DNA of 64,000 nt from the NCBI GenBank assembly GCA_026391795.1, contig JAPLDI010000013.1:1-64000 (forward strand), read 5' to 3'. The notes below the pieces were generated by a model that saw only the letters and a program-made list of their open reading frames with translations, ran no database searches and was not told the origin of the DNA. This DNA comes from Bacteroidota bacterium (GTDB lineage Bacteria; Bacteroidota; Bacteroidia; Bacteroidales; FEN-979). Below, piece by piece: positions 1 through 19,230 of this stretch. Position 1 is the stretch's first letter. Each line of letters begins with the position of its first letter. The position numbers were made by a program, and so were the translations under genes.

Positions 1-51
1 GCAGGTACCTTTGTAGCAAAATTTCGAGCTAAACCGTGCGGTGGGCAAGGG

Positions 52-183
52 TTTTCTTTTTGGTACTTTTACTTTGACCAGGATTCATAAAGAAAAAGTA
101 CACCGCTAAAAAGCAGGTCATTACCTGCCGGGGATTTCTTTTGCTGCTTTGCTTTGACCCCATTTTACCAAAGAAAAGCAGTC
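52..183. repeat. Two copies of an imperfect palindromic repeat unit in the left non-coding region
   Basis: Two units of about 50 bp (about 52-104 and 134-183) share the layout TTTCTTTT, then CTTTGACC, then AAAGAAAA, so each is an imperfect inverted repeat. Between them lies a short perfect hairpin, GCAGGT/ACCTGC at 113-128. Similar T-rich/A-rich palindromes between genes are, to my recollection, common in Bacteroidota. I see no gene in 1-416. The region may be chromosomal DNA flanking the phage element or an intergenic part of it. Confidence 0.5.
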
Positions 184-198
184 AAATTTTTGTTTTGT

Positions 199-232
199 AG
201 CGAAAAATCATACAATTCGTTGATTTTTCGCT
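199..232. terminator. 12-bp perfect stem-loop downstream of the terminase gene
   Basis: AGCGAAAAATCA (199-210) and TGATTTTTCGCT (221-232) form a 12-bp stem with a 10-nt loop. It lies about 185 bp beyond the 3' end of the minus-strand terminase gene, so it could end that operon or a transcript entering from the left. There is no strong U-tract on the minus strand, so terminator is only the most likely reading. Confidence 0.4.
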
Positions 233-416
233 TTATAACGGGTTGAATACCCTGTTTTTTTCTCTTTTTGCCTACGGAGTGCACGCCCCGCCCTATCGAA
301 AAATGTAATTACACTTTTCAGTTTCCGAGGGATATATGAATTAATACAACATATATAGTATCTTGACTATGTAAAATTCGTGAGAAAGAGAAAAGAAAGG
401 AAGATGCTCCCCTATG

Positions 417-1916
417 CTATCGTTGGTTAAGCATGAGCATATCGTTTGAATGATCCTGCTCCCCTAACAGGGAGCCAAGCACCCAGTAATAAAGATTGTC
501 TGTGGCATCAGATAAGTCAGTCGCTTTCCAGCGCGGCTGATCACGCTTGCGTTCGGAGGACTTATCCTTCTTGAATTCCTGCGGAAGGATTGGCGCACCA
601 TCCATGGAAACAAAGGTTTCCATGGCATTGTTCATATTGACACGAAACTTCGGCAATGCAGGATATTCACCGGATAAGAACTTATGCCAGAACTGGTATT
701 TGTCCATATGGGAAGCCTCATACAGCTCTGCCCGCAGGTATACGCTCCATCCGGCTTTGGTAAGTTGATCCCTGACATCATCAAAGTATGAATTCCGGGA
801 GGCTGCATCATTGCGCCGGTTTCCATCTGATCCCCCATACAGGTACAGGGTTTTGTCCTGTTTATGCTGATAGTAATCAATGAATTTCCCGATCAGAAGA
901 GAGAGCGTTTCGTTCTCGACATAGAAGTTTTTAATGACAGGGAATTCATTGGCCGTCCGGTGCCACTGGCTGACCACAATACAGTTCTGTGTAGTGCCAA
1001 AGTCAAAGGATACATACAGCGGTTCTGAAGGCAGGCAGTCCAGGTCACCCCGACAATCGAAAGAGGTTTTGTTTTTAATGTCATACCCCAGGGAATCATA
1101 GAAATCATAGTTGAAGGATTCCGTATAGGTATGCTTTGATGATGAAAGCAGCGGATAAAACCCTGTTACATTCTGTTTCCTGCGTTTATTCAGAACTTCC
1201 AGGTCGTAAACCACCTTTGGCAATACCCGTTTGAGATCCCGGAAGTACATTTCGCCCAGGATAAATTTATTTTCGAGGGCAGATGCTTCAAGGTAGAAAT
1301 ATCTGCCGGGATATTTTTCTGCCAGGGATTCATATTCAAAGACCCATTCACCGTCAGGGGTCAACGGCATACTGCCCAGGAATAAGGTGCCATGATGAAA
1401 TGCCAGATCTCCGAACCGTTCCCGGTTGCCTCGATTGGCCGGCAGTACATCAGCGTCTATGGAAGATTTCTTCAGCTTGGTGCACTCATCAAAGAGCATG
1501 GCATCATAGGATCCCGAACGAGCCATCTCAGGCCTGTCGAAAGAATTGAACTCCACGACAAAGCCGTTGATGAAATGAATGCAGTTCGTGTAATCCAACG
1601 GAGGCTGATATGGCTCAGCCCAGTTGAAACTCTTCGGAGATTTGTGGCCGATAAAATAATGATGACCACGATAGAGGCCTCGCCTTTCCAGGTGATCGAT
1701 GATCGGGGGCAGCGACTTGGTGCGGATATGGAAATAGGTCAACCCGTTGAGGGAAATCTTTCCCCGGGGCATTGCCTTGAAATATTTGATGATCTCTTCG
1801 GCAATGATGGTTGTCTTGCCTACTCCCCGGCCACCGATAAAGGTTTTATGAGGCTTCGTGCTGAGCAGGATGGATAACTGCGGGTTATTGTAGTAGGGAG
1901 AAGGTTTAAGATTCAT
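417..1916 (-). CDS. terL: Phage terminase large subunit (TerL)
   Basis: This is the ATP-driven DNA-packaging motor and headful nuclease. At 499 residues it has the normal TerL length. A Walker A motif GGRGVGKTT lies at residues 28-36 and a Walker B AMLFDE at about 139-144. A C-terminal RNase H-like nuclease is suggested by the acidic motifs SFDFGTT (about 305), GGSDGN and SDATDN (about 473), the usual spacing of the three metal-binding acids. The start overlaps the upstream gene by 11 bp, as in a coupled packaging operon. It is the last phage gene before the left non-coding region; a portal gene would normally come next but none is seen. Confidence 0.88.
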   Translation of the reverse strand: MNLKPSPYYNNPQLSILLSTKPHKTFIGGRGVGKTTIIAEEIIKYFKAMPRGKISLNGLTYFHIRTKSLPPIIDHLERRGLYRGHHYFIGHKSPKSFNWAEPYQPPLDYTNCIHFINGFVVEFNSFDRPEMARSGSYDAMLFDECTKLKKSSIDADVLPANRGNRERFGDLAFHHGTLFLGSMPLTPDGEWVFEYESLAEKYPGRYFYLEASALENKFILGEMYFRDLKRVLPKVVYDLEVLNKRRKQNVTGFYPLLSSSKHTYTESFNYDFYDSLGYDIKNKTSFDCRGDLDCLPSEPLYVSFDFGTTQNCIVVSQWHRTANEFPVIKNFYVENETLSLLIGKFIDYYQHKQDKTLYLYGGSDGNRRNDAASRNSYFDDVRDQLTKAGWSVYLRAELYEASHMDKYQFWHKFLSGEYPALPKFRVNMNNAMETFVSMDGAPILPQEFKKDKSSERKRDQPRWKATDLSDATDNLYYWVLGSLLGEQDHSNDMLMLNQR

Positions 1917-2532
1917 CTTCGGTTTCTTCAGTGGCCGGGTTTTCGGAGATCAGCATATTGAAATAATCGGTAACTGCCAGCTCTTCCGCCATTGCCAGTA
2001 TTCTTTCATGGAGCAGCAGCAGTTTTTCCTGGGCTTTCTGATCGATCATCTTGAAATAAGGGGTATTGATGAAATTGTAGTTGATCGACAGAAGCTGTAC
2101 CGGAGGCTGAAACTTGGAAGGGTCCGGCAGGTTTTGATCCTCTTTGTCCAGATTCATGGCTTTGGTGATCCGTTCCAGGGCTTTTTCCATACCCCGGAAA
2201 TCTTTCTTTGTCTTTGCCATGGCGTACAATTCACAGGCCCATGCGGTGACATGGAACCGGAACGCTTCCTTGGTATATCCCCGGACTTCCCCGAAAAGAT
2301 TCCGGGCATTGCGGATATCCCGGTAAGCCTGGGATTCGCAGATGTTGTAAGTTTTCATCAAAAGCTGAACGACATCATGTTCCTTCCGGTTCAGGTCATG
2401 GAGCTGCATCATGGCAGTCACCCATCGCTGGCGGATGATCTCATCCTGGGGGCTAAGCTGCGCATCTTTTCCCTCTTTGAAATAGAACGAATGGATCCTC
2501 TCAAAGGTTGACGGCGATATCAGTTCTTTCAT
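1906..2532 (-). CDS. Phage packaging-cluster protein, possible small terminase or adaptor
   Basis: A 208-residue protein directly before TerL, overlapping it by 11 bp and the preceding gene by 4 bp (ATGA). The middle is helical and basic, with a stretch around NICESQAYRDIRNARNLFGEV (residues 67-87) that reads like a helix-turn-helix recognition unit; the C-terminus is acidic. Position and a likely DNA-binding middle fit a small terminase subunit or terminase partner, but I recognise no family. The 94-residue gene upstream is the competing candidate for that role. Confidence 0.55.
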   Translation of the reverse strand: MKELISPSTFERIHSFYFKEGKDAQLSPQDEIIRQRWVTAMMQLHDLNRKEHDVVQLLMKTYNICESQAYRDIRNARNLFGEVRGYTKEAFRFHVTAWACELYAMAKTKKDFRGMEKALERITKAMNLDKEDQNLPDPSKFQPPVQLLSINYNFINTPYFKMIDQKAQEKLLLLHERILAMAEELAVTDYFNMLISENPATEETEDES

Positions 2533-2813
2533 AGGTCATCGGCTTTAGCGTTTTCAATCAGTTTCATGGCGAAAGTCTGGGCCGGAGAAGATCCGTTCTG
2601 TGCCAGGTCGAAGATCCCTTTGCGTACCTCTGCTTCCCGTTTCAATCTTCCCCGTTGAAAAGCAATCAGGGAAGGAGGATGATCATTGAGTGCTTCCATC
2701 AAACGCTGTTCAGGGATTTCCAGGATGATTGCAATCTCGCTCTTGGTAAACATCAGTGAAGCGTAGGTTTCAAGATCCTCAAGGAACTTGTCATTCAATA
2801 AATCATCATTCAA
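2529..2813 (-). CDS. Small HTH-type protein, possible small terminase subunit
   Basis: A 94-residue protein with a helix-turn-helix-like stretch (FTKSEIAIILEIPEQRLMEA, about residues 22-41) followed by a basic helix. This layout is common in terminase small subunits and short phage regulators. The start codon is TTG, overlapping the stop of the PLD gene by 8 bp; the next ATG is only at residue 21, inside the conserved-looking part, so TTG is preferred. It overlaps the 208-residue gene by 4 bp. Function is inferred from fold hints and position. Confidence 0.55.
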   Translation of the reverse strand: MNDDLLNDKFLEDLETYASLMFTKSEIAIILEIPEQRLMEALNDHPPSLIAFQRGRLKREAEVRKGIFDLAQNGSSPAQTFAMKLIENAKADDL

Positions 2814-3390
2814 AATCGCTTTCTCCTTTCAATTCGTTTAAAATCCAGTCCCGGTGAAATTCCGCCACATCCCGGACCGAGCATAAAACATTGGCTTCAA
2901 TACGTGGGTTGCGGGTATAATTGGCGCTGCCCACAACACAAACACCCCAGGAATCATTGATGATTACAGTGACCTTTGCGTGGCACTTGGCAGCTTTGAT
3001 GTCGGTTGTGATCTTTTGAAGGAACTGGAGCTCTGCCGGCTTACGGGTTCCGTTGCGGTAATCGAAGATACCCTTCAGCTCAAGGATCAGCCCGTCTTCG
3101 ATCATGTTATGAAGCTGCCGGATGGCATACTCTGAGATTGCCCAGGTTGTAAAGTAAACTTTCGCCGGGCCGATCTGCTCAAGAAGGTAAAATAAAAGAT
3201 CATGCGTACTCCAGTCGCCCATTGAGACATAGTGTTTATTCATATCCTGGCAAAGCTGGCCGATGACAGCCTGGATCTTTTGATTAGCCTTCCCGATTTT
3301 CAAAAGATTTGTACCGGGAGCATCAATTGCACGGGATTTGATTCTATCCGGCGCTTTCTTTAAGAGATTCTCAGAGGAAAAGAGTGTCAC
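2806..3390 (-). CDS. Phospholipase D-like (PLDc/HKD) family protein, putative nuclease
   Basis: A 194-residue protein with one HKD half-site: CHAKVTVI (HxK, about residues 137-144), an Asp a few residues on, then GSANYTRNPRIEAN (about 158-171). PLD-superfamily members with a single half-site normally act as dimers and cleave phosphodiesters, including DNA (the Nuc/BfiI type). A conserved-looking AKVYFTTWAIS stretch at about residue 75 fits the N-terminal beta sheet. It starts with GTG, overlapping the upstream stop as GTGA. It sits in the packaging operon, so a role in phage DNA processing is possible, but no substrate can be read from sequence. Confidence 0.72.
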   Translation of the reverse strand: MTLFSSENLLKKAPDRIKSRAIDAPGTNLLKIGKANQKIQAVIGQLCQDMNKHYVSMGDWSTHDLLFYLLEQIGPAKVYFTTWAISEYAIRQLHNMIEDGLILELKGIFDYRNGTRKPAELQFLQKITTDIKAAKCHAKVTVIINDSWGVCVVGSANYTRNPRIEANVLCSVRDVAEFHRDWILNELKGESDFE

Positions 3391-4040
3391 TTGTTGAGTT
3401 TTGAATTAATATCATCCATTTCCATCTGGAATTTTGCCAGCAGCTCTTGATTTCGGGCAATGACCTTTAAGGATTTCCCTTCTTTGACTTTTCGCTTGTA
3501 CCGGGAAATGTAAACCCTCACTGCCATTTGGCGTTTGATCAGTTCAGCCTCTGAGTTTGCACCGACCGGCTGTTCCGATTTCTTTTCCGGCTCCGGTGGT
3601 ACAACACCATGCTCTTCAAAAAATTTGAGTTTTGTATTGATCCCCTGCAGCCGATCGTCCGTTTCTAGAATTTCAAATGCGACTTTCATTCGTGTCGCTT
3701 TGTCGCCAGCAGAGAGCAAAGGATGAAGGTGATCGAGAATTTTATAACAGCCCTTTTGCTGGGATTTCAGGTCCAATGACGGACAAGGTTCTTCTGGTGC
3801 CGGAACGAGATTGGTTGCTTCAGCAAGGGGTGTAATTACAGTTTTCTGCCTTGGCACCTCGTTGAGCTTTCGTAGAAGCTTGTTCAATTCATACGCAAGG
3901 GTCTGTTTGTTCTTTGGAGTTGGTCCCCTGACATGAAAAATCCGGCTAAGACTGCGGATTCTGACATACTTGTCAAAAAGTTCAAGGCCGGTGGAGTATT
4001 TTCGCTTAGATTTCAGCCAGAGATTGATTTCGTCTTCCAT
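3387..4040 (-). CDS. Hypothetical phage protein, helical and basic
   Basis: A 217-residue protein I do not recognise. It is rich in Lys/Arg with predicted long helices at both ends, and the centre holds a Pro/Glu-rich linker (about residues 75-90 and 135-150). It is the first gene of the packaging operon that restarts downstream of the cargo cassette and overlaps the PLD gene by 4 bp. No signal peptide or membrane segment is visible. A DNA-binding or virion-assembly role is only a guess. Confidence 0.6.
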   Translation of the reverse strand: MEDEINLWLKSKRKYSTGLELFDKYVRIRSLSRIFHVRGPTPKNKQTLAYELNKLLRKLNEVPRQKTVITPLAEATNLVPAPEEPCPSLDLKSQQKGCYKILDHLHPLLSAGDKATRMKVAFEILETDDRLQGINTKLKFFEEHGVVPPEPEKKSEQPVGANSEAELIKRQMAVRVYISRYKRKVKEGKSLKVIARNQELLAKFQMEMDDINSKLNK

Positions 4041-4114
4041 GAAACGAAAGTATGGCTGTAATTACATAATGGAAAGGACAGAAAACAGATTTTTACAATA
4101 AAGTTACCAATATA

Positions 4115-5647
4115 TTATGAGACCTCATCAAGACCTGACGGGTCTATATTTTCCTCAACTTCTTGTTTAATGTACTTATTAAAATACATCATATACCCCT
4201 TATGTAGCCTTTGAAGTAAATCAACAAGTCTATTATGCAATTCATTTATTTGTTCTGATTCAATATCTTGGAGTACTCTAATAAGAAACTCCGTTGCAAT
4301 TTGTAAAGAAATAAATGCTGGGATTAGTCCTGCAAATCTGTTTGGATTATCATTATACCAGAATAGTCCATTATGCATTGGGTTAAAACTTTTGGCCAAA
4401 TGATACTTTGAAATTACTCTCCAATGTCCATGAATAACATCAGAAGAACGCTTATAGAGAAAATAATAAGGGTTTTCTGAACCCCAAACCTCATCTGCCA
4501 TTTGATCAATCCTGATGTCAAATATTTCTCCCCTTTCTGTTGCGACATCATCATGCCTAACACCGGCTTCCTTTACAGCTTTGTCGATAATTTTATTGGC
4601 GGCTTTTTTGAAAGTTTCACTAGATGACATTTTCTCAAGTTGTGAACCAAAATACTTTTCTCGGCCGGTGCTAAATTCTCTAAACCTTTCATGAAGTTTA
4701 ACATCCTTTTTTATTAGCAACCATGAACCGACAATAAATGACTCAAGAATCGTTCTAAATAAAAGTTCGGCAATTTCACCTTTATGCAGTTTGACAAACT
4801 CAACCGCTTCAATACTAAGATTACTTATTCTTGAAACAAATCCCATATTTATCTCAGCGATAAACCTTGGATAAATTGCCAAGAGATTCAGTTTCTTAAA
4901 TTCCCCATACAAGTCGATAAATTCATTTTTGAATTTATCGACGCCCATCTCTAAGTAATGTTCTTCTTCCATTTTACTATCATCAGGTTTAGGTAATCTT
5001 GGAGAAAACAGATAGTTATACATCCATAAATCTTGGCACATCCCAAGATCGAGGTTTTCCGACAAACCGATTGAAGGAGGAAATAATGCCATAATGGTGG
5101 ACACATTATTCGGATCAACTATTTCTTCTTTCGAGTTCCATTTAAATAACCCAAAAAAATCGGGCCTTCCAGATTGTTCATATTGAACCATTAAATACTT
5201 ACATAAAATGGAAGTGTCTGATCTGCCATCAAGAATCTGTTTATAGCCATTGAATAAAAGTTTAGGTTTAAACTCAATGTCTTTATCAACAGAGATTTCA
5301 AATATGTCCTGATAAAAAATCAATATTTGTTGAAAGGCTTCCCTAAAACTAGAATCAAGAATCTTCTCAAGAATTGTTGTCTCCTTAGGAATTAATTTGA
5401 TTGCATGTGTCAGGTTAAAATGAAACTTCCTTTGTAAATGTACCTTTTGGTTTACGTAATCGCATATTTCATAAAAATCTTTTTTAACAGTCTCGTAATC
5501 ATTATTATAGAGTGCGATCGATATATGGACAAATTCCGGAATTCTTTCTGACCAAGAAAAAGGTTGTACCATTCCCGGGTAGGGGTCAAAAGTTCGTTGC
5601 CACACCGTTCGGGTTTGTCTTATTCGTCCTTTTCTTTTCGCTCCCAT
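4115..5647 (-). CDS. DUF5677-like protein, last gene of the cargo cassette
   Basis: A 510-residue, mostly helical, cytosolic-looking protein. The C-terminal third (about residues 280-470) resembles DUF5677-type proteins: a helix with LLFRTILESFIVGSWLL, then YKRSSDVIHGHWR at about 398-410, then a helix with a conserved-looking hydrophobic face. R400 and H406 have the R-x5-H spacing of HEPN ribonucleases; assigning HEPN activity is inference. The N-terminal 270 residues match nothing I know. It is separated from the zinc-knuckle gene upstream by 69 bp and is, like the rest of the cassette, AT-rich compared with the phage genes on both sides. Confidence 0.6.
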   Translation of the reverse strand: MGAKRKGRIRQTRTVWQRTFDPYPGMVQPFSWSERIPEFVHISIALYNNDYETVKKDFYEICDYVNQKVHLQRKFHFNLTHAIKLIPKETTILEKILDSSFREAFQQILIFYQDIFEISVDKDIEFKPKLLFNGYKQILDGRSDTSILCKYLMVQYEQSGRPDFFGLFKWNSKEEIVDPNNVSTIMALFPPSIGLSENLDLGMCQDLWMYNYLFSPRLPKPDDSKMEEEHYLEMGVDKFKNEFIDLYGEFKKLNLLAIYPRFIAEINMGFVSRISNLSIEAVEFVKLHKGEIAELLFRTILESFIVGSWLLIKKDVKLHERFREFSTGREKYFGSQLEKMSSSETFKKAANKIIDKAVKEAGVRHDDVATERGEIFDIRIDQMADEVWGSENPYYFLYKRSSDVIHGHWRVISKYHLAKSFNPMHNGLFWYNDNPNRFAGLIPAFISLQIATEFLIRVLQDIESEQINELHNRLVDLLQRLHKGYMMYFNKYIKQEVEENIDPSGLDEVS

Positions 5648-5716
5648 ATCTGAAAATTTTATCTGGTTCTATGCCACATAACGACAAGATATTTATAATC
5701 TAAAAAACCTAGATAT

Positions 5717-6658
5717 CTATTCGTTGATACACTTATTATGTGTGCAAACACTTTCAAATCTTGTTTCGATATTATGAGCTTCCCCACATTTGGGACATTG
5801 AAAAACAATTCCATCATTATCACAATTCAAACATAATCCTTTCATTTCATTGTTATTTAATTCAATATCAAGGTTATCATAAATTACTGACCTTTTAGCA
5901 CCACAATAATCACAATCAATCATTGAATATAGCTCTGTAGAAAAATTACAGCAATAGCAATAATCCTCATCTTGACTAAAAGTCCGATTATTACAAACGA
6001 TACATTTGAAAACCTGATCGGAGTTATCTCTTGCGAGCTTTTCCATCGCATAAACATACGGAGGATAGTGCATCAATCGTTTATGCAGAGGGCTGCCTAA
6101 TGAATATTCCAGAAACTCTGATGGTTTTTCGTCCTGATGTTTCCTTGAAAGTAAAACCTTGAAAATGACATGAATTAAGTAATAAATGATATCATATTTT
6201 AAATCAAACAGATCACCTTCGCAGAACTTAAATGAAAAATGTACTATTCTATTTCGGTATAATTGAAATTCCTCAATAACATTAAATTCATCCCTTGACA
6301 AATCTTGAATATAGTTTTTCGACTTTATAAAATTCTTCTGAGCCTCAAAATCAAGAGTGTTCAATTTGTTTTCTTTAAGTAAACTCTCAATTTCTTCATC
6401 TCCCAATTTTTGTTGTTTACTATTTAAAATACATCGAATTCCATCCCTTTCAATAATTAAAGCTTTAATTGCTAATTCTAATGATATCTGAAACGAGGTA
6501 CATGTCAATGCTAGCAAATCATGATCAATTAAATCCTCGTCACCACGATCTTTATTAACCAATCTTTCAATTCCATCTTTTAGAAACACTATAGAATTGT
6601 TATAAAGCATCTTATATGCTTCTTGTTCAAATTCGGTTTTTGTCCAATTTTTTATCAT
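5717..6658 (-). CDS. HEPN-like protein with C-terminal zinc knuckles
   Basis: Start taken at the ATG at 6658; a TTG 18 bp upstream is the alternative. The 313-residue product has two parts. The N-terminal half is helical: SFQISLELAIKALI (about 55-68) followed by LYRNRIVHF, where R135 and H140 give the R-x4-H motif of HEPN RNases. The C-terminal 95 residues carry repeated Cys pairs: C219/C222, C234/C236/C237, C249/C252, C276/C279, C288/C291 and C305/C310, enough for about three zinc sites of the rubredoxin or zinc-ribbon type. Such a tail could bind nucleic acid or a partner protein. The domain combination is unfamiliar to me. Only 7 bp separate it from the cyclase-like gene. Confidence 0.65.
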   Translation of the reverse strand: MIKNWTKTEFEQEAYKMLYNNSIVFLKDGIERLVNKDRGDEDLIDHDLLALTCTSFQISLELAIKALIIERDGIRCILNSKQQKLGDEEIESLLKENKLNTLDFEAQKNFIKSKNYIQDLSRDEFNVIEEFQLYRNRIVHFSFKFCEGDLFDLKYDIIYYLIHVIFKVLLSRKHQDEKPSEFLEYSLGSPLHKRLMHYPPYVYAMEKLARDNSDQVFKCIVCNNRTFSQDEDYCYCCNFSTELYSMIDCDYCGAKRSVIYDNLDIELNNNEMKGLCLNCDNDGIVFQCPKCGEAHNIETRFESVCTHNKCINE

Positions 6659-6665
6659 AAATTCT

Positions 6666-7424
6666 CTAATTTGCAACTCTTGCTAACCTAATAGATCTAG
6701 AAATTGCACTTTGTCTTATTGCACCACATTCATGGAATAGAACCTGGGTGGCTGCAGCTTGAGAAAATTCTTCAATATCATGTGCAGAATATCTTAATCT
6801 CGATGCCATGTGTTCTGCAATTTCCTCCCACTCATCATTTTCAGCGCAAGCCATCCATAAAAAATCTAATAACTCACCTTGGATAATATTTGGATAATTT
6901 GAGTGGCGTAGCCTTTTGAGAGTAATGAATGATGCCTGACCAAATGGAATTCTAAATGCATTACGAGCTTCTGCATCAATAAGTTCAGATCTTACCAAGA
7001 CTCGCATTCCTTTAAAACCTGATTTTTCAATAGAAATCGCATCAAAAGCCTCATCAGAATAGGTATATGCTTTAACCTGATCGAATGGTGGTCTCATCGG
7101 AGATTCCCTACGAGTGAAGGTTTCATGATAAGGAACAATACATCCTCTAAGCCATAATCGATTTGCACGTGGGTTTTCAGGATTACGGAATGCCCATCGA
7201 TAAATCCGTTGAGCAATTCTCAACGAAGTAATCACTGAGTCACAAATAAGCATTGCTGAATCAGTTTCAATACCTCCTTGTAATATTGATTGAGGATCTT
7301 CTTCCCTTATTGCCGCATTAACTAAACGACCAAAATGATTGAACATTCTCATCGCTTCTTCTGTTCCACCATTTTGCCAGCGCTTTCGGGCACCAAGCAT
7401 ATCGAAAAATAATATTGTCGCCAT
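6666..7424 (-). CDS. Class III nucleotidyl cyclase-like protein
   Basis: A 252-residue soluble protein that opens with ILFFDMLGARKRW, like the first beta strand of class III adenylate/guanylate cyclase domains where the Asp (D8) binds metal. A second acidic hairpin, IETDSAMLICDSV (about residues 52-64), fits the second metal Asp, and LRGCIV (about 92-97) fits the following strand. Related FxDxLG...SDS proteins include Pycsar-type cyclases and many uncharacterised proteins, so catalysis is not certain. It lies 4 bp after the AbiU2-like gene and 7 bp before the HEPN/zinc gene, which argues for one operon and a joint role. Confidence 0.55.
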   Translation of the reverse strand: MATILFFDMLGARKRWQNGGTEEAMRMFNHFGRLVNAAIREEDPQSILQGGIETDSAMLICDSVITSLRIAQRIYRWAFRNPENPRANRLWLRGCIVPYHETFTRRESPMRPPFDQVKAYTYSDEAFDAISIEKSGFKGMRVLVRSELIDAEARNAFRIPFGQASFITLKRLRHSNYPNIIQGELLDFLWMACAENDEWEEIAEHMASRLRYSAHDIEEFSQAAATQVLFHECGAIRQSAISRSIRLARVAN

Positions 7425-7428
7425 TTAA

Positions 7429-8046
7429 TTATAGATTAACATTTAATAATCCTTGCTCAAGAAAATAGAGTAATGAGTTCGATCCTTTGATGTTTATTGG
7501 AATTTCAAAAGCTACAGAAGAATGGAAATAGTGGATTTGAACAAGATTCATAAGATCTTGAATATCCCTCAATAGTTTTTTTACCTTTTGAGGAGTAGCC
7601 TCCATACCAGATTTGTCTTCTTTTGAAAGTTGGTACGTATAGTCAATATGTGAAATCCATTTGTTCCTCCAATACCTACAAAATTCGGAATCAGTAATAA
7701 TATTGTCAATTTTTAGGCAAATATCAGTTTTAAGTGATGGGTCTTCTATTAATTCTGGGAATGATCTAATAGTTATATTAGCTTTTGCAAAAGATTTTGG
7801 AGGGTCTGTTACTCTTGAAATTCCCAGAAGAATGTACTCCCAAAATACTTTTTGAAGAATGAAGAAAAAGAAAGGAGCAGCCTGATTCATAACCTTCATT
7901 CTTTTTCCGGTGCCCATATACAAGAACGAGAATTCGTTGTATAAGGTTTGAAGTGTAATAATCTCATTATAAAGTAGATTATATTGAGTTCCTAATTCAA
8001 CTCCAAGTACTTTAATATGTTCTTTTTTAACTTCTTCTGCGGTCAT
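7429..8046 (-). CDS. HEPN AbiU2-like protein, first gene of the cargo cassette
   Basis: Start taken at the ATG at 8046 (205 residues); a TTG two codons upstream is unlikely. The helical product has LGISRVTDP (about residues 74-82), typical of the HEPN_AbiU2 family, and later RNKWISH, where R127 and H133 give the R-x5-H catalytic spacing, followed by Asp. AbiU2 belongs to a lactococcal abortive-infection system, and HEPN proteins are usually metal-independent RNases. An aromatic stretch FFFFILQKVFWEY (about 59-71) looks like a buried helix rather than a membrane segment. It leads a four-gene operon placed just behind a terminator. Confidence 0.68.
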   Translation of the reverse strand: MTAEEVKKEHIKVLGVELGTQYNLLYNEIITLQTLYNEFSFLYMGTGKRMKVMNQAAPFFFFILQKVFWEYILLGISRVTDPPKSFAKANITIRSFPELIEDPSLKTDICLKIDNIITDSEFCRYWRNKWISHIDYTYQLSKEDKSGMEATPQKVKKLLRDIQDLMNLVQIHYFHSSVAFEIPINIKGSNSLLYFLEQGLLNVNL

Positions 8047-8211
8047 TGTCAATTTGTAAGACTTTACTGCAACTTGTTCAGGATGGAAGGAACCTAAATT
8101 TTCATTATGTTAAAAAAACCTCAAAATAATCCATCTATACAGATCAATTAATCTCTTCATACTGAAACTCAACAACATCACAAAGGTGAAAAAATATTTT
8201 CATATAACAAA

Positions 8212-8239
8212 AAAGCCTGCCAGATTTCTCCGGCAGGCT
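8212..8239 (-). terminator. Rho-independent terminator after the capsid gene group
   Basis: On the minus strand AGCCTGCC and GGCAGGCT form an 8-bp GC-rich stem with a 10-nt loop, followed directly by a run of T. It lies about 40 bp after the stop of the 185-residue structural gene and about 165 bp before the AbiU2-like start. It therefore separates the late genes from the cargo cassette, which must have its own promoter in 8047-8211 or depend on readthrough. Confidence 0.8.
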
Positions 8240-8277
8240 CTCAACTAACCTACTTATGAAAACAAAAACGCTCTAAA

Positions 8278-8835
8278 TCATTCTACCGGGGGATTGGGAT
8301 CCATCAGCAGATCGCCTTCGTAGAAGGCCATGGGTGAACTCTGCTTGCACAGAAAACCGAACTTATGGCCTTTGTCTTTATCGATCTCCTCTCCCCAGGT
8401 CGTATCGATGGTCTCAATGTGTACCAGGTTGCAGGGTTCCCCGATAAGGTACCGTTTGTTGGAGGCACAGTTCTGGATGATCACGATCCCTTTGAAGTCA
8501 ATCCCGAAGTTCTGTATCCATTTCTGGACAGACTTCTCGATACCAGGGTAAAATCCTTCCAGTCCGATCTCAAAACCGCCACAATCCTGGTTGGAACCTT
8601 TGAGCTTCTTCTGCGAAGGTTTAATGGTGCCCTGAGTCATGTAGAAACTATGCATGAATTTACCGGTGAGCAATTGGATGTCATCGGCAATAGTTACTCC
8701 GTCAGCATCTCTTTGCGGAAAAGTAGTCCAGTCAATATCCTTTTCCAGGATCAGGATGATCTCGGATTTGATTCCGCCACCGCCGCCGGCGTTTCTTACG
8801 CTGGGCTTGAATAGGTCAAACAGTGATATACTCAT
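8278..8835 (-). CDS. Hypothetical phage structural protein
   Basis: A 185-residue protein directly downstream (20 bp) of the capsid-like gene. After a short N-terminal segment there is a Gly run (about residues 17-21). The rest reads as beta-rich, with motifs such as GFEIGLEGFYPGIEKSVQKW. Its size and position behind the major capsid protein suggest a virion component such as a tube or connector protein, but I recognise no family. A strong terminator follows it. Confidence 0.6.
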   Translation of the reverse strand: MSISLFDLFKPSVRNAGGGGGIKSEIILILEKDIDWTTFPQRDADGVTIADDIQLLTGKFMHSFYMTQGTIKPSQKKLKGSNQDCGGFEIGLEGFYPGIEKSVQKWIQNFGIDFKGIVIIQNCASNKRYLIGEPCNLVHIETIDTTWGEEIDKDKGHKFGFLCKQSSPMAFYEGDLLMDPNPPVE

Positions 8836-8854
8836 GATTTTTTCTTTTTAAGGA

Positions 8855-9802
8855 TTAAGCGGGAACGTATGCAAATACGGCTTCTTCGATCCCGAAACCA
8901 ACGGATTCGTACCAGTCTGCAAAAACCTTGATCTGACGGTCAACACTCTCGACAGATATGCTGGAAGCGCCGCTGTTACGGTTCATCAGACGGATGAAAT
9001 TCTCTTTCGGCGTGGTGAAAATCACATCTTCGCCAGCCATTGAAGGAAGCGAGGTCAGAGTAAGATTGGTTCCTTCAAGAAGGGTTTTCATCCCGTCATA
9101 GTTCGTGTCGGTGCCATGAAGATCCCGGCGTTTGCGGTGATAAGCAGAGAACCATTTGCGGGAAAGGAAGATGTTCATCGACATATCCTTGTAAAGATCC
9201 CCGACCTGCTCCCCAAAAGATTCAAGCTGATCGAAGATATTATCAGCGGTCAGAGGCTCCAGCTGGATGAAGTTGATGTTGGAATTCCCCTGGGTATGCT
9301 TGTGCTTGAGGATCGTGACAAAGCCATCCATAGATAGACCCAGTGCCTGTGCGGTTCCTTCCACGGGAGCAACATAGGTTCCTTTGCCGATCAGGGCAAG
9401 TTCCCGGTTATCATTGACCTTCGGGATGATCAACTGTTCGATGATGTATTTGGAGATCGGCCATGCTTTGCGGTCGATCGACTCATCACCCATGAATCCG
9501 AGCCATGAATCCATGATCTCGTCCGGATAGAATGAAAGATCGATCTTGTGCCGGCGCTGCATGATCTCGACAGGAGTAAATGCAGCTTTCCCTTTCGGGG
9601 TCCAGCCCTCCTGGAATCCCTGGACAAGATCGGAGATCACAGCCTTGGATGCACGGTAAACCAAATCCTGCGACTGCTTGGTGGTCATGAAGGTTTCGGA
9701 GTATGTCGGTTGGGTCAACAGTCGCAGGATATCCTTCTGGTTCGTTCCGACGTACGTCCCGAATGCGGCTTTAAGCTGGGCTAATGAAATTGTTTCGGCC
9801 AT
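8855..9802 (-). CDS. Major capsid protein (probable)
   Basis: A 315-residue protein immediately after the S49 protease/scaffold gene, the classic place for the HK97-fold major capsid protein. It lacks a signal peptide, is rich in short helices near the N-terminus (IVSDLVQGFQEG-like region, residues 50-70) and in beta structure towards the C-terminus, and has the length of many Bacteroidota phage capsids. The call rests on context and size more than on a decisive motif; a structure prediction would settle it. Confidence 0.68.
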   Translation of the reverse strand: MAETISLAQLKAAFGTYVGTNQKDILRLLTQPTYSETFMTTKQSQDLVYRASKAVISDLVQGFQEGWTPKGKAAFTPVEIMQRRHKIDLSFYPDEIMDSWLGFMGDESIDRKAWPISKYIIEQLIIPKVNDNRELALIGKGTYVAPVEGTAQALGLSMDGFVTILKHKHTQGNSNINFIQLEPLTADNIFDQLESFGEQVGDLYKDMSMNIFLSRKWFSAYHRKRRDLHGTDTNYDGMKTLLEGTNLTLTSLPSMAGEDVIFTTPKENFIRLMNRNSGASSISVESVDRQIKVFADWYESVGFGIEEAVFAYVPA

Positions 9803-9827
9803 GGGTTCAAAAATTTATTGTTAAAAA

Positions 9828-11054
9828 TTATGAGCAGAAATCATCTGCGATTTTGTCGTGTGCATACACCGGTTCTTCGGCACCGCTTTCAATCTTGTCT
9901 GCATCTTTAGCGGCAACGATCGGGAGTGCGGCATCTTCCTGCTGAAGTGCCAGAAGAGTTGCTTTTGTGTCAGCATGACTTTTCTTTTCATCTGCAAGCA
10001 ATGTTTCCAATTCCTGGTTCCGGGTCATCACATTTCCCAGTTCGTCATTGAGCTGTTGAACCCTCTCTACAGTCAGCTCCTGTGTTTCAAGGGTGGAAGG
10101 ATCCATTTTAAAATAGCTCTGAATAGCTTTCCAGGTTTCTTTGATTTTCATATTTTCAAGATTATTGGTTTCAGTTTCAATTGAAAGTTCTTTGGTAACA
10201 GGCGCTAATGCCGATGCCACTGATATCGCATATTCAAGTGATCCGATCTCATCGATCAGCCCCAGGGCAATGGCTTCAGGGGCAAAGTAGATTTTGCCGC
10301 TGAGGGTTCCATCTTCGACTACGGAACGGTTTTCTTTGATGGTCGATAAAAATTTGGCATTGATCACATCCAGGACGTTTTGCTGGTAGGGTTTGTAATT
10401 CCCGTCGAGTACCTGGTTCAAATCTTTGTTCTTGTCCACCGAAAGGGTTGCATAAACTTCATGGAATTTCACCCCTTGCGATTCAAAATAGGGCTGCAGG
10501 TCTTCAACCAGGAGCATTGTTCCAATGGAACCGATGCGGTCAAGGTCTGAACTGGCAATGATTTTTGAGGCACCGGAAATAATCCAGTATGCGGCACTGG
10601 CAGCCATTCCTTCGATAAAAGCGACGACCGGTGTAGCACAGGATTTGATTGTTTCCGAAAGCAGATCGGTATAGGTGACTTGGCCTCCCGGACTGTCCAC
10701 GACCAGGACAATGCTGCAAATATTGGGATTGGCATCTGCCGATTTGATCTCCTGCATGATCGATTGCGTTCCCCTGGGGCCGCAGCTCTGGTCATATTTG
10801 AAGATCTCCGAGCGGATCGGGATCACTGCGACCGACCTTTCAGGAATGTTTCCGTCGGAAAAACCGAACCGTTGGGGTTCGTCTGCTCCCATTCCGAGAA
10901 TATAGGATCGGTTACGCTCCCTGGCCAATGACGAATCCCCATTAGAAAACCGCTCTCCTTTGATCAGGGAAAGCAGCATCGAAGCATAAGCATTCGATCT
11001 TTCTTTGGAGATCAACCAGGGGCTTGAAAAGATTTCGGCTAAAACGGGATTCAT
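9828..11054 (-). CDS. S49-family prohead protease fused to a scaffold domain
   Basis: A 408-residue protein. Residues about 75-260 form a ClpP/SppA-type serine protease: VVDSPGGQVT holds the oxyanion-loop glycines, and FIEGMAASAAYWI carries the catalytic Ser (A-S-A) near residue 152. The S49 Lys could be supplied by a later position. From about residue 300 there is a long coiled coil (QELTVERVQQLNDELGNV, TRNQELETLLADEKKSHADT), typical of capsid scaffolds. Phages often fuse the two so that the protease digests the scaffold after procapsid assembly. It is followed 25 bp later by the capsid gene. Confidence 0.85.
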   Translation of the reverse strand: MNPVLAEIFSSPWLISKERSNAYASMLLSLIKGERFSNGDSSLARERNRSYILGMGADEPQRFGFSDGNIPERSVAVIPIRSEIFKYDQSCGPRGTQSIMQEIKSADANPNICSIVLVVDSPGGQVTYTDLLSETIKSCATPVVAFIEGMAASAAYWIISGASKIIASSDLDRIGSIGTMLLVEDLQPYFESQGVKFHEVYATLSVDKNKDLNQVLDGNYKPYQQNVLDVINAKFLSTIKENRSVVEDGTLSGKIYFAPEAIALGLIDEIGSLEYAISVASALAPVTKELSIETETNNLENMKIKETWKAIQSYFKMDPSTLETQELTVERVQQLNDELGNVMTRNQELETLLADEKKSHADTKATLLALQQEDAALPIVAAKDADKIESGAEEPVYAHDKIADDFCS

Positions 11055-11055
11055 C

Positions 11056-11076
11056 GTATCCTAAAATTCAGGATAC
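11056..11076 (-). promoter_or_regulatory. Stem-loop abutting the start codon of the protease/scaffold gene
   Basis: GTATCCT and AGGATAC pair as a 7-bp stem with a 7-nt loop. On the minus strand the 3' arm AGGATAC lies one base before the ATG of the S49 gene, so it hides the only Shine-Dalgarno-like AGGA. This could reduce translation or be opened by a phage protein; that is inference from position. Confidence 0.4.
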
Positions 11077-11126
11077 AATATTATAATGGTATCGGCGGCA
11101 AATAAAGGACTAAAAAGAAAAGCAGG

Positions 11127-11633
11127 TCAATTCTGGTTTTCATCATCCGGGATCGGACCGTTTGGTAGTTGGAGAAAACCGGCAGGCTTGCTGAACTCTC
11201 CTGAAAACAGCAGTTCGTAACCGTTGAATGTTTCCATGGCGGCGGGTTTGAGCAGCTTGCTGGAAAGTTTCATCGGGCTTTCCATGTTACCAAAAATACG
11301 GATGGTACCATTTTTATCGGCTGCTTTAAGGATCAGTCGCCGGCCAGTCATACGCAGCAGTTCCGCTTCGACCGGCGCCCGGTCTTTTGGAACAAGTATT
11401 TTCAATTTGTACAGGAACTTAACGCCGCCCGGGGTATCCTGCTGCTCGGATTCAAGCTGCATCGTTTCCGGAGTGCCATAGATGGAACTCCAGGACTTGC
11501 CGGTTTTCAGAGTAACAGAACAAAAGAGTGTTGTTTCATTCCAGGTGAATGATGCAACGTCTTCACGAAAAATCCAGTTCACCGGGTTTAGTCCCCCGAT
11601 GTTGATGCCGGTGTGTCTTAAAATGTTTGCCAT
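11127..11633 (-). CDS. Hypothetical phage structural protein
   Basis: A 168-residue, beta-rich protein between the replication and capsid genes, with no signal peptide. It contains GINIGGLNPVNWIF near the N-terminus and a Pro/Asp-rich C-terminal tail. Its place before the protease/scaffold gene suggests a head or neck component, but I do not recognise the family. It starts at ATG one base after the stop of the upstream 173-residue gene. Confidence 0.58.
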   Translation of the reverse strand: MANILRHTGINIGGLNPVNWIFREDVASFTWNETTLFCSVTLKTGKSWSSIYGTPETMQLESEQQDTPGGVKFLYKLKILVPKDRAPVEAELLRMTGRRLILKAADKNGTIRIFGNMESPMKLSSKLLKPAAMETFNGYELLFSGEFSKPAGFLQLPNGPIPDDENQN

Positions 11634-11634
11634 C

Positions 11635-12156
11635 TCATTTTTTTGTTAAAAAAACACAGTGACACTCCGGGGACATCTCAGGGACAAAAAGTGAGCAACT
11701 TTTTTCCGTTTTTCTCCGGGAGCGTTTTCTGTAATAATCTTTTTTCAGCATCTCGTAGTTGATATTGCTGAACGTGACGTTGTGATCGGAACAAAACTGG
11801 AGAATACATTTTTTGAATGACTTGTAGAACCGCACCTTGTCATCCATGTATTGAAAAAAAAGCTCCTTGAAGTGCCATTCCAGGTACGATTCAAATATTT
11901 CCTGGTTGCTGGGCGGCACCCAGAGATTCGATTTTATCCACAGATCGTTGTAATATGGCAGGATAAAGGTGATGTACTCTTTGCCTTTGGGGAAATCCGG
12001 GGCAGTACTCATAGGCCGGATCTCAAGGAGCGGCTTCAAAAGCTTACCGATTAGGTTGGTCTTTGAAGCAACATTGCTATTCAGCGAGCAAATCAGGTAT
12101 TCCTGCAGGTAAGGCTTCAGTTTGAGCGTAATGGTAGGGTGTGTTTCTTGTTTCAT
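11635..12156 (-). CDS. Hypothetical phage protein with a basic C-terminus
   Basis: A 173-residue protein, one base upstream of the structural protein. The sequence is aromatic-rich and helical (LEWHFKELFFQYMDD, about residues 93-107) and ends in a basic patch YYRKRSRRKTEK followed by three Cys. The basic tail suggests nucleic-acid binding. I recognise no family. Gene order places it between the iteron region and the head genes. Confidence 0.55.
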   Translation of the reverse strand: MKQETHPTITLKLKPYLQEYLICSLNSNVASKTNLIGKLLKPLLEIRPMSTAPDFPKGKEYITFILPYYNDLWIKSNLWVPPSNQEIFESYLEWHFKELFFQYMDDKVRFYKSFKKCILQFCSDHNVTFSNINYEMLKKDYYRKRSRRKTEKSCSLFVPEMSPECHCVFLTKK

Positions 12157-12193
12157 AAATCAAAGGTATGTCTGGTTAACAAGTCAATAAAGG

Positions 12194-12442
12194 TCATTTC
12201 GATTTCACAAAAACCATTTCATGATCCAGAAAGGGTTTGAGACTTTGACTCCGGGTGTACTCCTTTATATAGTGTACCTCGTAATGATCCTGGTTTGATC
12301 GCTTGATCAGGTATTGCATTCCGGTTTTCTTTTTCCCTTTCAGATGAAAATCGTCCATGGTTGCCAGGTGGAACCCCTCCGGCAATTCTTCATAATACTC
12401 CCAGCCGAAGCGATCAATTTTTATTTTTTCTGTATTTTCCAT
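12194..12442 (-). CDS. Small hypothetical phage protein
   Basis: An 82-residue charged protein with a Lys-rich middle (FHLKGKKKTGMQYLIKRS). No family is recognised. It is the first gene after the iteron array and begins 16 bp from its left end, so its expression could be affected by whatever binds the iterons. Confidence 0.5.
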   Translation of the reverse strand: MENTEKIKIDRFGWEYYEELPEGFHLATMDDFHLKGKKKTGMQYLIKRSNQDHYEVHYIKEYTRSQSLKPFLDHEMVFVKSK

Positions 12443-17044: not shown

Positions 17045-17314
17045 TCAAAACCCTTTGACTTTTGGCATCAATCCACCCTCTTCAATCAGTTGCCTTGTCT
17101 TTACAACATCAACGAGGTAATGTTTTCTGCTTTTCGTTACAGCCAATACCGATACCGGAATAGTTCCTGCATCTGCCAGAACCCTGATTCGTGATTGCGG
17201 TATGCCAAGCGTTTTAGATGCCTCGGGAATCTTCTGCCATCTTTTAGGAGCAGTTGTTTCCAGTGCCAGGCGAATGCTCCTTAGTTCTTTTAAGATTAAT
17301 TCTTCGTTACTCAT
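17045..17314 (-). CDS. Excisionase/MerR-like helix-turn-helix protein
   Basis: An 89-residue protein. An N-terminal helix is followed by WQKIPEASKTLGIPQSRIRVL (residues 21-41), which has the spacing of a winged helix-turn-helix as in phage excisionases (HTH_17, AlpA/Xis type), and then a Lys-rich wing. It is divergent from the XRE repressor and heads the minus-strand early operon, so it likely acts as excisionase, AlpA-type activator or Cro-like regulator. Confidence 0.68.
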   Translation of the reverse strand: MSNEELILKELRSIRLALETTAPKRWQKIPEASKTLGIPQSRIRVLADAGTIPVSVLAVTKSRKHYLVDVVKTRQLIEEGGLMPKVKGF

Positions 17315-17338
17315 AAATTATCGTAGTTTATTTTTCGG

Positions 17339-17346
17339 CAAATGTA
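17339..17346 (-). promoter_or_regulatory. Bacteroidota -7 element for the early minus-strand operon
   Basis: On the minus strand TACATTTG matches the Bacteroidota -7 consensus TAnnTTTG exactly and lies 25 bp from the start codon of the excisionase-like gene. No clear -33 TTG is present about 20 bp further out, so the promoter may need an activator. Confidence 0.5.
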
Positions 17347-17440
17347 TTTATTATTTATAAACTTAATTACTAATTAATAAATTTTTTAAATATTAGCTAT
17401 ATTAACCTGATCATAAGTATTTTAAACATTTCTCAAAAAG

Positions 17441-17489
17441 TAAATAGTGCTAAATAGTACAAATTACTTGACTTATGACATCAAATAGT
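17441..17489. promoter_or_regulatory. Candidate repressor operator (AAATAGT direct repeats)
   Basis: TAAATAGT occurs at 17441 and 17451, exactly one helical turn apart, and AAATAGT again at 17483 inside the repressor promoter. The repeats lie between the divergent regulatory genes. They are a reasonable binding site for the XRE repressor, but this is inference from position and spacing. Confidence 0.4.
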
Positions 17490-17498
17490 TTACATTTG
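17468..17498 (+). promoter_or_regulatory. Bacteroidota-type promoter of the repressor gene
   Basis: TTG at 17468-17470 and TACATTTG at 17491-17498 are 20 bp apart, matching the Bacteroidota primary sigma consensus. Transcription would start near 17505, about 30 bp before the repressor ATG. An operator-like repeat overlaps the spacer. Confidence 0.6.
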
Positions 17499-17536
17499 CG
17501 AAATAAATTAACACCATATTAATACTATTAAGCAAA

Positions 17537-17914
17537 ATGAAAGTCGACGGTAACAAGATCAAGACCCTGTTAACTCAAATCGGGTCCACCCAGAAGGAGC
17601 TTTCAAAATATTGCAAGATTAATACGGCAACGGTAAGTAAGCTCATCAAGTCTGGTCACACCAGTGAGTCCAATACCCGTTTGATAGCGAATTTCCTAAA
17701 AGTAAATCTGAATGAGATAGCGACCTTTGAGAACGGTGACCCGATACCGGGGCCTTCGGCAGAGGTGGTTTACATCAAAGACCCTGAATCTGAAAAGCAG
17801 GTACTTGAATTGATGGACAAGGTGAAGGATTTAAAGAAGATCATTGAATTGCAGGGAAAGATCATTTCCCATTTTGATCCGAACAATCAAAATAATGAAA
17901 ATCTGATACCATAA
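17537..17914 (+). CDS. XRE-family phage repressor-like regulator
   Basis: A 125-residue protein with an N-terminal XRE helix-turn-helix (residues about 4-58): TQKELSKYCKINTATVSKLI is a typical helix 2/helix 3 recognition unit. The C-terminal part (about 90-113) is a Leu/Ile heptad coiled coil, KQVLELMDKVKDLKKIIEL, likely for dimerisation. It has no LexA/CI-type S24 peptidase domain, so induction would not be by RecA-driven self-cleavage. It is the only plus-strand gene of the element and is divergent from the excisionase-like gene, as in a lysogeny switch. Confidence 0.78.
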   Translation: MKVDGNKIKTLLTQIGSTQKELSKYCKINTATVSKLIKSGHTSESNTRLIANFLKVNLNEIATFENGDPIPGPSAEVVYIKDPESEKQVLELMDKVKDLKKIIELQGKIISHFDPNNQNNENLIP

Positions 17915-18040
17915 ATAATTAACTCCAAGTGTTTGTAAACACTCAAAATATCACATATTTAATACCATGAAAAATAAAACTCTGGGAAATCCAACATAGA
18001 CAAGCGATGCAGAAAATCGTCGAAGCCCCGTCCGGTCCGC

Positions 18041-18075
18041 AAAGTCCCCCAAAAATCTTTTAGGGGACTTTTTTT
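18041..18075 (+). terminator. Rho-independent terminator
   Basis: AAAGTCCCC (18041-18049) and GGGGACTTT (18063-18071) form a 9-bp stem followed by a T-run on plus. It lies about 130 bp after the repressor gene and ends at the ATG of the GIY-YIG gene. It may end repressor transcription or a small upstream RNA that I cannot identify (17980-18040 is GC-richer than its surroundings). Confidence 0.75.
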
Positions 18076-18336
18076 ATGCCTGGATATTACGTTTATATAC
18101 TAAAAAGTCTTCGTGATTCCAGTTATTATATTGGATTCTCTAGAGATGTCGCTCATCGATTAGAGGAACATAATCAAGGGAAGAGCAATTATACCAAACT
18201 AAAAATGCCCTGGGCTGTCGTATATATGGAAGAGCACAAAACAAAAGCTGAAGCATTGAAACGGGAAAATTCCTCAAGGCCCAGCGGAGTTAACTTCCCT
18301 GCACATTCACGTTTAATTCTGCTCAGGTTAGCGTGA
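18076..18336 (+). CDS. GIY-YIG domain protein (UPF0213/UvrC-like), C-terminus altered
   Basis: An 86-residue product. YYVYILKSLRDSSYYIGFS (residues 4-22) holds the GIY-YIG pair (YVY and YIG), followed by R28, HN at 33-34 and a TKLKMPW/VVYMEE stretch, as in small stand-alone GIY-YIG proteins. The family normally ends with a Glu-containing helix (KRE..IK..) of about 15 more residues. Here KRE is followed by NSSRPSGVNFPAHS, which does not look like the family, so the end is probably replaced or frameshifted. The ATG lies directly behind the terminator, leaving almost no leader. Confidence 0.7.
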   Translation: MPGYYVYILKSLRDSSYYIGFSRDVAHRLEEHNQGKSNYTKLKMPWAVVYMEEHKTKAEALKRENSSRPSGVNFPAHSRLILLRLA

Positions 18337-18515: not shown

Positions 18516-19230
18516 ATGAAAAAACTTTCAATCTTTGTTGGATTGCTTCTGCTTTTTTGCAACACAATGCTTGCCCAGGTCGGCATCAATGCCGACAACA
18601 GTGCACCCGATCCATCATCCATGCTCGATGTGAAATCCACTTGTAAAGGGCTTTTGCCTCCCCGGATGACTACAACCCAGCGCGACGCGATAACTGCACC
18701 GGCAGCCGGTCTTATTATTTACAATACCTCAAAAAACTGTAATGAAACTTACAATGGGTCCTCCTGGGTCAGCAATACGCATTACATCAGCGAAAGTTAT
18801 GGCGGAGGGATCGTGTTTTATATCTTTGATAACGGACAGCATGGTTTAATAGCAGCCACTGCCGACCAAAGTGCTGGAATCAGATGGGATGGCCAGGGCA
18901 GATGGAGTTGATGCAGGATTAAAAAACACATCAATAATCATCGGCAGTCAGGGCCCCGTTGACGGGAATCCATTTGCAGCTACTTTGTGCAACGAATATT
19001 CAGTAACTGTCAGTGGCGTTACCTATGGCGATTGGTATCTACCCTCAAAGTATGAACTGAATTTATTGTACATCCAAAAAGCTGTTGTTGGCGGTTTTGC
19101 TGTTTCCGGCTATTGGAGTTCCACCGAGTTTGCTAATAACAAGGCGTGGACCCAGTTCTTCCCCGATGGCTACCAGGGGGGCTACTTTAAGTCCAACCCT
19201 TACTGTGTGCGGGCTGTGCGGGCTTTTTAA
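18516..19230 (+). pseudogene. Frameshifted exported DUF1566-like surface protein
   Basis: Two overlapping frames form one protein. The first (18516-18911) has a signal peptide ending MLAQ, a module [20 protein letters not shown] / GLLPPRM / IIYNTS and the start of a DUF1566-type domain ([15 protein letters not shown]). The second, one base out of phase, continues from about 18900 with [21 protein letters not shown] and the closing YWSSTEF...VRAVRAF, the normal end of that fold. A 1-bp indel near 18890-18905 therefore breaks a roughly 237-residue gene. The N-terminal module recurs three times in the large protein at 47740-51036. A sequencing error cannot be excluded. Confidence 0.7.

Follow-up and report, generated by a model that had tools for sequence, protein, structure and literature searches.

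Phages of the P2/P4 kind carry hotspots in which fixed phage flanks enclose small, variable contents, and the available descriptions list genes of restriction, TIR and HEPN type among the cargo. Here we describe a comparable slot in a phage element at the beginning of a 64,000-nucleotide stretch of DNA, hereafter the window (contig JAPLDI010000013.1 of Bacteroidota bacterium assembly GCA_026391795.1, positions 1 to 64,000). The slot is filled by four minus-strand genes, p1 to p4. On the basis of sequence comparisons and a structure model we consider these genes the present contents of an accessory slot that keeps its position within a family of phages, and their role is probably to stop competing phages in the carrier cell. 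The P2/P4 hotspots are described, in the portions available, as cos-proximal or adjacent to the integrase, whereas the present slot lies behind a terminator on the capsid side and before terminase-side genes, belongs to another phage family, and has a cargo whose activity is predicted from sequence.

Several known systems resemble parts of this cargo. Type III CRISPR systems combine Cas10 with Csm6/Csx1, and the MNT proteins of MNT-HEPN pairs have a polymerase-beta fold. The likeness to type III CRISPR is that of a palm-type cyclase with HEPN RNases (the HEPN part according to the accessible text of PMC3710099); p2, however, is class III-like, p1 and p3 are without a sensor domain match, and no search was aimed at CRISPR parts. 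MNT-HEPN pairs likewise place a HEPN gene beside a nucleotide-using enzyme (PMC3710099, in part), whereas here the enzyme has a predicted class III cyclase fold and p1 precedes it. In Panoptes (mCpol with 2TM-beta), as far as described in the accessible sections of PMC12657230, a small cyclase stands beside a toxic effector gene; mCpol is Cas10-like and makes c-di-AMP, while an RNase would serve as effector in the present case, and p2 was compared with mCpol by description only. The AbiU2 family (PF18734), to which p1 belongs by score and motif, is already listed in operons with other HEPN genes in the part of the 2013 HEPN survey available (PMC3710099), which gives a Bxe_C0808 HEPN family 'in operon with AbiU2'; p2 was not seen at the other 14 AbiU2 places of this study. 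The predicted fold of p2 is the class III fold of Pycsar cyclases (PMC11224242, in part), and two of its aspartates correspond, by sequence position, to their metal-binding pair. Searches of the open-access literature yielded neither a defence operon of HEPN and class III nucleotide cyclase genes nor a description of such a slot in Bacteroidota phages. Phage-borne defence hotspots are a known kind of locus; new here are the slot and its unusual cargo with an unnamed cyclase-like family.

The slot and its contents in related phages

The sequence-only reading of the window had described a cassette of four AT-rich minus-strand genes, separated by 4 bp (p1-p2), 7 bp (p2-p3) and 69 bp (p3-p4), between two phage late gene groups and behind a strong terminator. 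The coordinates (Table 1) bear this out, and the placement is strengthened by relatives with an empty or otherwise filled slot. The GC content of the cargo is 0.334, against 0.464 in the phage part and 0.462 in the host part of the window. The cassette has phage head and packaging genes on both sides, among them a head maturation protease (phrog_53, E 1.8e-52) and the large (phrog_2, E 1.3e-10) and small (phrog_309, E 6.6e-6) terminase subunits. The terminase matched 30 phage records (Flavobacterium 13, Cellulophaga 9, Polaribacter 2, Microcystis 2, Bacteroides 1, unnamed 3), and these matches together with the host gene content make a host among the Bacteroidota probable. Three terminator-like sites were counted in 3900-8500, against 2.3 from shuffles; the two besides the one at the slot edge have only 6 pairs.

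Two scans with a capsid-like protein gave 25 related viral loci (L059-L077 and L089-L094), and relatives of both flanking genes (8278-8835 and 3387-4040) were present in 22 of them; L062, L069 and L092 have a single flank and stand outside these 22 slots. The pairs L073/L074 and L075/L076 are near-identical, and L065, L067 and L068 look alike, so that the independent contents are fewer. The slot is empty, at 33-115 bp, in nine loci (L063, L064, L065, L067, L068, L070, L072, L089 and L090) and filled with other genes in 13. None of p1, p2, p3 and p4 was found in the 25 loci.

Locus L059 is nearly the same phage, with 95.2% identity over window positions 1-4080 and 89.8% over 8166-12400; nothing was aligned between by blastn, and the cargo is therefore framed at 4081-8165. 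In the 12 loci compared, the T-run of the terminator leads straight into TGTCCTTT where the slot is empty, and where it is filled the cargo lies between the terminator and TGTCCTTT, with the terminator kept. The cargo is thus dispensable and exchangeable, and the terminator divides it from the capsid-side genes.

Its sequence context marks the slot as an exchangeable site for accessory and defence genes, comparable to the P2/P4 hotspots. Several occupants resemble defence genes: Mrr with a UvrD/GajB-like helicase, a TIR-like protein, and a methylase with a GmrSD/HNH protein. The UvrD helicase of L059 matches GajB in PADLOC (E 3.1e-49), which may reflect only its UvrD helicase likeness, and together with the Mrr_cat protein it may form a restriction system of two genes. 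Because the slot has clear boundaries, occurs both empty and filled, and is naturally swapped in a near-identical phage, new antiphage candidates can be sought in it directly. As a separate observation, the slot of L077 holds a compact pair of modification and nuclease genes.

The four cargo proteins

An AbiU2-like HEPN protein had been proposed for p1, and the database search agreed: p1 matches PF18734 (HEPN_AbiU2) in Pfam with E 3.6e-18 and 66.2 bits (cut-off 26.8). Its R-N-x4-H motif (R127, with its codon near 7666-7668, and H133, near 7648-7650) is invariant in 15 of 15 aligned AbiU2 sequences, the window's included. The pattern R-x4-6-H alone is weak, because it arises frequently in composition shuffles (31% for p1, 64% for p3 and 89% for p4); conservation was used to decide instead. 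On this sequence evidence p1 is an AbiU2-family HEPN protein and a putative RNase. An alternative TTG start lies upstream at 8052 and would give a product of 207 aa. AbiU2 occurs in 9 of 218 genomes of the window's phylum, and p1 itself gave four plasmid matches (near-duplicate records H2 and H4 were left out) and one phage match, but none in viral contigs. Searches against solved structures with p1, p3 and p4 singly and with the four family profiles gave nothing below E 0.2. AbiU2 was not found in the genomes of the three p2 relatives introduced below, and control genomes were equally without signal. At one other place (L030), an AbiU2 gene stands beside a weakly HEPN-like open reading frame (ORF; E 0.017, below cut-off).

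Pfam, PHROGs and NCBIfam, searched at E up to 5, gave no match to p2. A scan of the genome collection returned four rows, three of which were kept as relatives, from records labelled Verrucomicrobiaceae (L025, 43% identity), Bryobacterales (34%) and Actinomycetota (35%). The fourth, L028, was rejected because its match covers residues 101-187 only, it has no Pfam match and the p2 profile misses it; it was excluded from the alignment, which thus holds four sequences including the window's. The structure predicted from these four (pLDDT 82.4, pTM 0.83) was placed by Foldseek among class III nucleotide cyclases (best 3et6, E 5.7e-5). VIA-align gave as best match 7r65, the Pycsar cUMP synthase BcPycC, with Z 14.0 over 173 residues and a root mean square deviation of 3.6; further cyclases followed at Z 12.3-13.6, a mycobacterial adenylyl cyclase at 13.6 tying with 7r65. 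According to this model p2 has a class III nucleotide cyclase fold, as had been anticipated from the sequence. PADLOC, in a copy whose PycC models are unconfirmed, gave a single weak Cas6 match for p2 (E 0.0026) and none for the three relatives. Assignment as a type IV Cas6 was rejected, with this one weak match set against a clear cyclase fold.

Active class III cyclases have a transition-state Asn/Arg pair in addition to their aspartates. In p2, D8 and D55 are invariant in all four sequences with a spacing of 47, compared with the cyclase aspartates by sequence position only, and the block EKSGFKGMR, located past the fourth strand of the model, is likewise invariant. The catalytic pairs of two PycC enzymes, D62/D106 and D102/D146, are spaced by 44 (PMC11224242, accessible part). 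Three of the four family members have an aromatic residue two positions before the first Asp, as F60 of AnPycC and F100 of EaPycC do in the same source. In contrast, the N-terminal helix given there as a PycC hallmark is not in the p2 model, in which the first strand begins at residue 3 with no helix ahead, and mycobacterial adenylyl cyclases score the same against p2. Nor did p1, p3 or p4 give a cyclic-nucleotide-binding Pfam match at E up to 5, although a divergent domain could be missed. With no such partner matched, p2 was rejected as a canonical Pycsar cyclase.

Judged from the searches made, the p2 family is rare and unnamed. Of 395 genomes sampled from the phylum of the window, only the window's own held it (1/395), and its profile returned only genomes already known from 145 phylum genomes (1/145) and 43 family genomes of the L025 holder and from 45 of the window's order. 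Viral contigs gave no match to p2 alone, to the alignment or to the L025 relative; phages gave none to p2, and plasmids none to p2 or the L025 and L027 relatives. The L025 relative (7980-8789) is one of three genes enclosed by hsdS (4747-6141; PF01420, E 1.8e-33) and hsdR (8786-12421; HSDR_N, E 1.8e-43) in a type I restriction locus (4747-12421). The other two encode an MBL-fold protein matching the PADLOC candidate PDC-M48B (E 1e-86) and a protein that seems to have membrane helices and resembles no family well; no paper on PDC-M48 was found in the open-access literature. Rare, cyclase-like and unmatched in these three family databases, p2 and its relatives stand next to genes of HEPN type in the window and within a restriction locus in L025.

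For p3, a HEPN-like protein with a zinc tail had been suggested, and this is likely. The motif R135-N136-x3-H140, of R-x4-6-H type with a polar residue after R, and the cysteines are invariant in four of four sequences, the window's included. The profile match remained weak (PF05168, E 0.047, 14.3 bits versus a cut-off of 22), and comparison with the AbiU2 profile aligned the motif at a probability of 7%. From its sequence p3 is probably a HEPN protein with zinc ribbons. It gave no match in viral contigs and one in plasmids. In a genome of the same class (L017, 4384-9611), a p3 relative belongs to a series of ORFs; one of these is Swt1-HEPN-like (E 8.3e-5, below cut-off), and in others R-x3/4-H can be made out by eye.

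The DUF5677 assignment of p4 was upheld (PF18928, E 6.6e-15, 56 bits, cut-off 27.1), and the R-x5-H reported for it is present; its proposed role as a further HEPN-type RNase motif was not sustained. The alignment covers 14 of 17 other places (the weakest three, L055-L057, were left out) and the window, and in these 15 sequences R400 occurs only in the window's own, while H406 is invariant. The motif thus looks coincidental, and p4 was rejected as a HEPN RNase so far as that reading drew on R-x5-H. Also invariant in 15 of 15 are R298 (in R-x3-E) and E302, and R298-x3-E302 with H406 is suggestive of an active site peculiar to DUF5677. The p4 structure model was poor (pLDDT 46.4) and too low to search with. 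There was no profile similarity between p4 and the p1 and p3 alignments, p4 had no match in viral contigs, plasmids or phages, and the open-access literature on DUF5677 held nothing related. Of 218 genomes from the phylum of the window, 18 held DUF5677. Because of the 69-bp gap and the occurrence of DUF5677 on its own elsewhere, p4 may be a separate module or passenger.

Proposed function and competing explanations

In our preferred reading, that of a cargo directed against competing phages, p1, probably helped by p3, would cut RNA upon infection by another phage and halt the cell. The product of p2 would make or withhold a nucleotide signal or modification which restrains or triggers the adjoining HEPN partners; an activating signal as in Pycsar, a restraining signal as in Panoptes and a toxin-antitoxin relation all fit. 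The slot, the families, the predicted fold of p2 and the conserved residues are shown by sequence or model; we infer the RNase action, the signal, the trigger, the benefit and carriage as a prophage.

A number of observations weigh against this reading. No two of the four families were found together in 36 distinct places outside this genome (14 AbiU2, 3 p2, 3 p3 and 16 DUF5677; four profiles, 76 non-own loci), many of which are only about 3.5 kb, so that a distant partner could escape, and p2 relatives are few (three); L055 was not recovered by the DUF5677 profile in this count. Two of the three p2 relatives, one of them on a 3.7-kb contig, have no recognised defence neighbour. Slot occupants outside defence comprise Stealth-like and glycosyltransferase genes and a transposase; the Stealth-like and glycosyltransferase cargo of more distant relatives perhaps modifies the surface instead of serving defence. 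Six related viral records, possibly fragments, showed no integrase, and the lysogenic setting is accordingly a presumption. Finally, the first base of the window is also the first of contig 7 in a 3.76-Mb genome of 50 contigs, and the contig start truncates the element at its terminase end, beyond which the remainder was not seen. The sequence-only reading took tight spacing as support for joint function of the four and had itself named homologues that never occur together as counting against it. With no co-occurrence in the 36 places and none of the genes in the 25 phage loci, a conserved joint set of four is not supported by the sequences compared.

The same counts favour an account in which p1-p4 are independent modules piled up in the slot with no joint mechanism, p1 alone being a defence gene. 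This is quite possible, and we lean only slightly away from it. The distance of 69 bp to p4 and the single genes or pairs in the slots of several relatives are in keeping with it; the gaps of 4 and 7 bp, however, suggest one transcript and coordinated translation of p1-p2-p3, and none of the four is found alone in the slot of any relative. A signalling system of cyclase and HEPN proteins, with the p2 product made on infection (activating, as in Pycsar) or constantly (restraining, as in Panoptes) and with p1 and p3 as RNase effectors, would make use of the class III fold and invariant aspartates of p2, of its tight packing between two HEPN-type genes, and of the L025 restriction locus, where a p2 relative beside MBL and membrane-protein-like genes fits one signal enzyme with different effectors. 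It is nevertheless unlikely in our view: Pfam matched no known nucleotide-binding sensor domain in p1, p3 or p4, none of the three relatives gave a second place with a HEPN gene beside p2, and p2 could not be assigned the Asn/Arg pair that active cyclases have. Equally tentative is the proposal of a new defence in which an unnamed family of class III cyclase fold would activate or silence HEPN RNases through a nucleotide signal; a Pycsar-like signal would thereby be coupled to an effector that cuts RNA, and the system would travel in a phage slot with exchangeable contents; the link from cyclase to RNase defence is a directly testable idea.

Two further accounts were weighed. Neutralisation of the HEPN toxins through modification by p2, as in MNT-HEPN, with the set mainly maintaining itself in the population, would agree with a HEPN toxin adjoining a nucleotide-using enzyme and has a precedent in the available part of PMC3710099. 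We doubt it, since the predicted fold of p2 is that of a class III cyclase and not of polymerase beta, and since p2 follows p1, while that part of the survey places MNT genes almost always 5'. That late-cluster RNases shut down host RNA during the lytic cycle of the phage itself is suggested by their location among late genes and is very unlikely: nine of the 22 relatives lack any cargo, none has these genes, and a terminator stands between the capsid-side genes and the cargo.

Feature coordinates and further observations

Table 1 Features of the cassette and its flanks in the window, and slot contents of related phage loci (positions in the locus named)
Feature	Position	Strand	Description
p1	7429..8046	minus	AbiU2-family HEPN protein, 205 aa, ATG start; PF18734 and invariant motif
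p2	6666..7424	minus	Class III nucleotide cyclase-like protein, 252 aa; predicted fold and invariant D8, D55
p3	5717..6658	minus	Probable HEPN protein with cysteine-rich zinc-ribbon tail, 313 aa; invariant R135, H140
p4	4115..5647	minus	DUF5677 protein, 510 aa; PF18928 and invariant R298, E302, H406
Exchangeable cargo	4081..8165	no strand	No alignment with near-identical phage L059; blastn breakpoints 4080, 8166
Terminator, slot edge after capsid-side genes	8211..8242	minus	14-pair stem; kept in relatives
Slot edge, terminase side	4041..4080	minus	TGTCCTTT stretch and leader before gene 3387-4040; present in empty and filled relatives
Capsid-side flanking phage gene	8278..8835	minus	phrog_19897, E 3.9e-8; relative adjoins capsid-like gene in L059-L077, L089-L094
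Terminase-side flanking phage gene	3387..4040	minus	Relative present in 22/25 loci
L059 slot	8480-11320		Mrr_cat protein (Pfam E 3.3e-7) and UvrD helicase (Pfam E 1.3e-49), 30 bp apart
L060 slot			127-aa ORF
L061 slot			423-aa protein, weak TPR matches
L066 slot	10109-12017		TIR or deoxyribosyltransferase-like protein (PADLOC E 6.8e-8), then 236-aa protein without convincing family match
L071 slot			Mutator transposase among small ORFs
L073, L074, L075, L076 slots			Stealth-like (Pfam CR2, below cut-off)
L077 slot	1209-3535		EcoRI-type methylase (E 9.5e-124) overlapping GmrSD_N (E 2.1e-21)/HNH (E 1.7e-6) protein
L091, L093, L094 slots			Stealth-like with other genes; glycosyltransferases in L093, L094
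One-flank loci			L069 EcoRI-type methylase; L062 two small ORFs; L092 RadC-, ArdC- and C5-methylase-type genes

The junction between phage and host DNA (17045-18336) contains an 89-aa minus-strand ORF, a divergent helix-turn-helix (HTH) protein (PF01381, E 3.6e-5) and an ORF that is GIY-YIG-like by eye; the primase end has the divergent HTH gene and a short opposite one. At 18516-19230, a frameshift has apparently broken a secreted-protein-like gene into a pair of overlapping ORFs, of which the second matches Lcl_C (E 1.1e-8).

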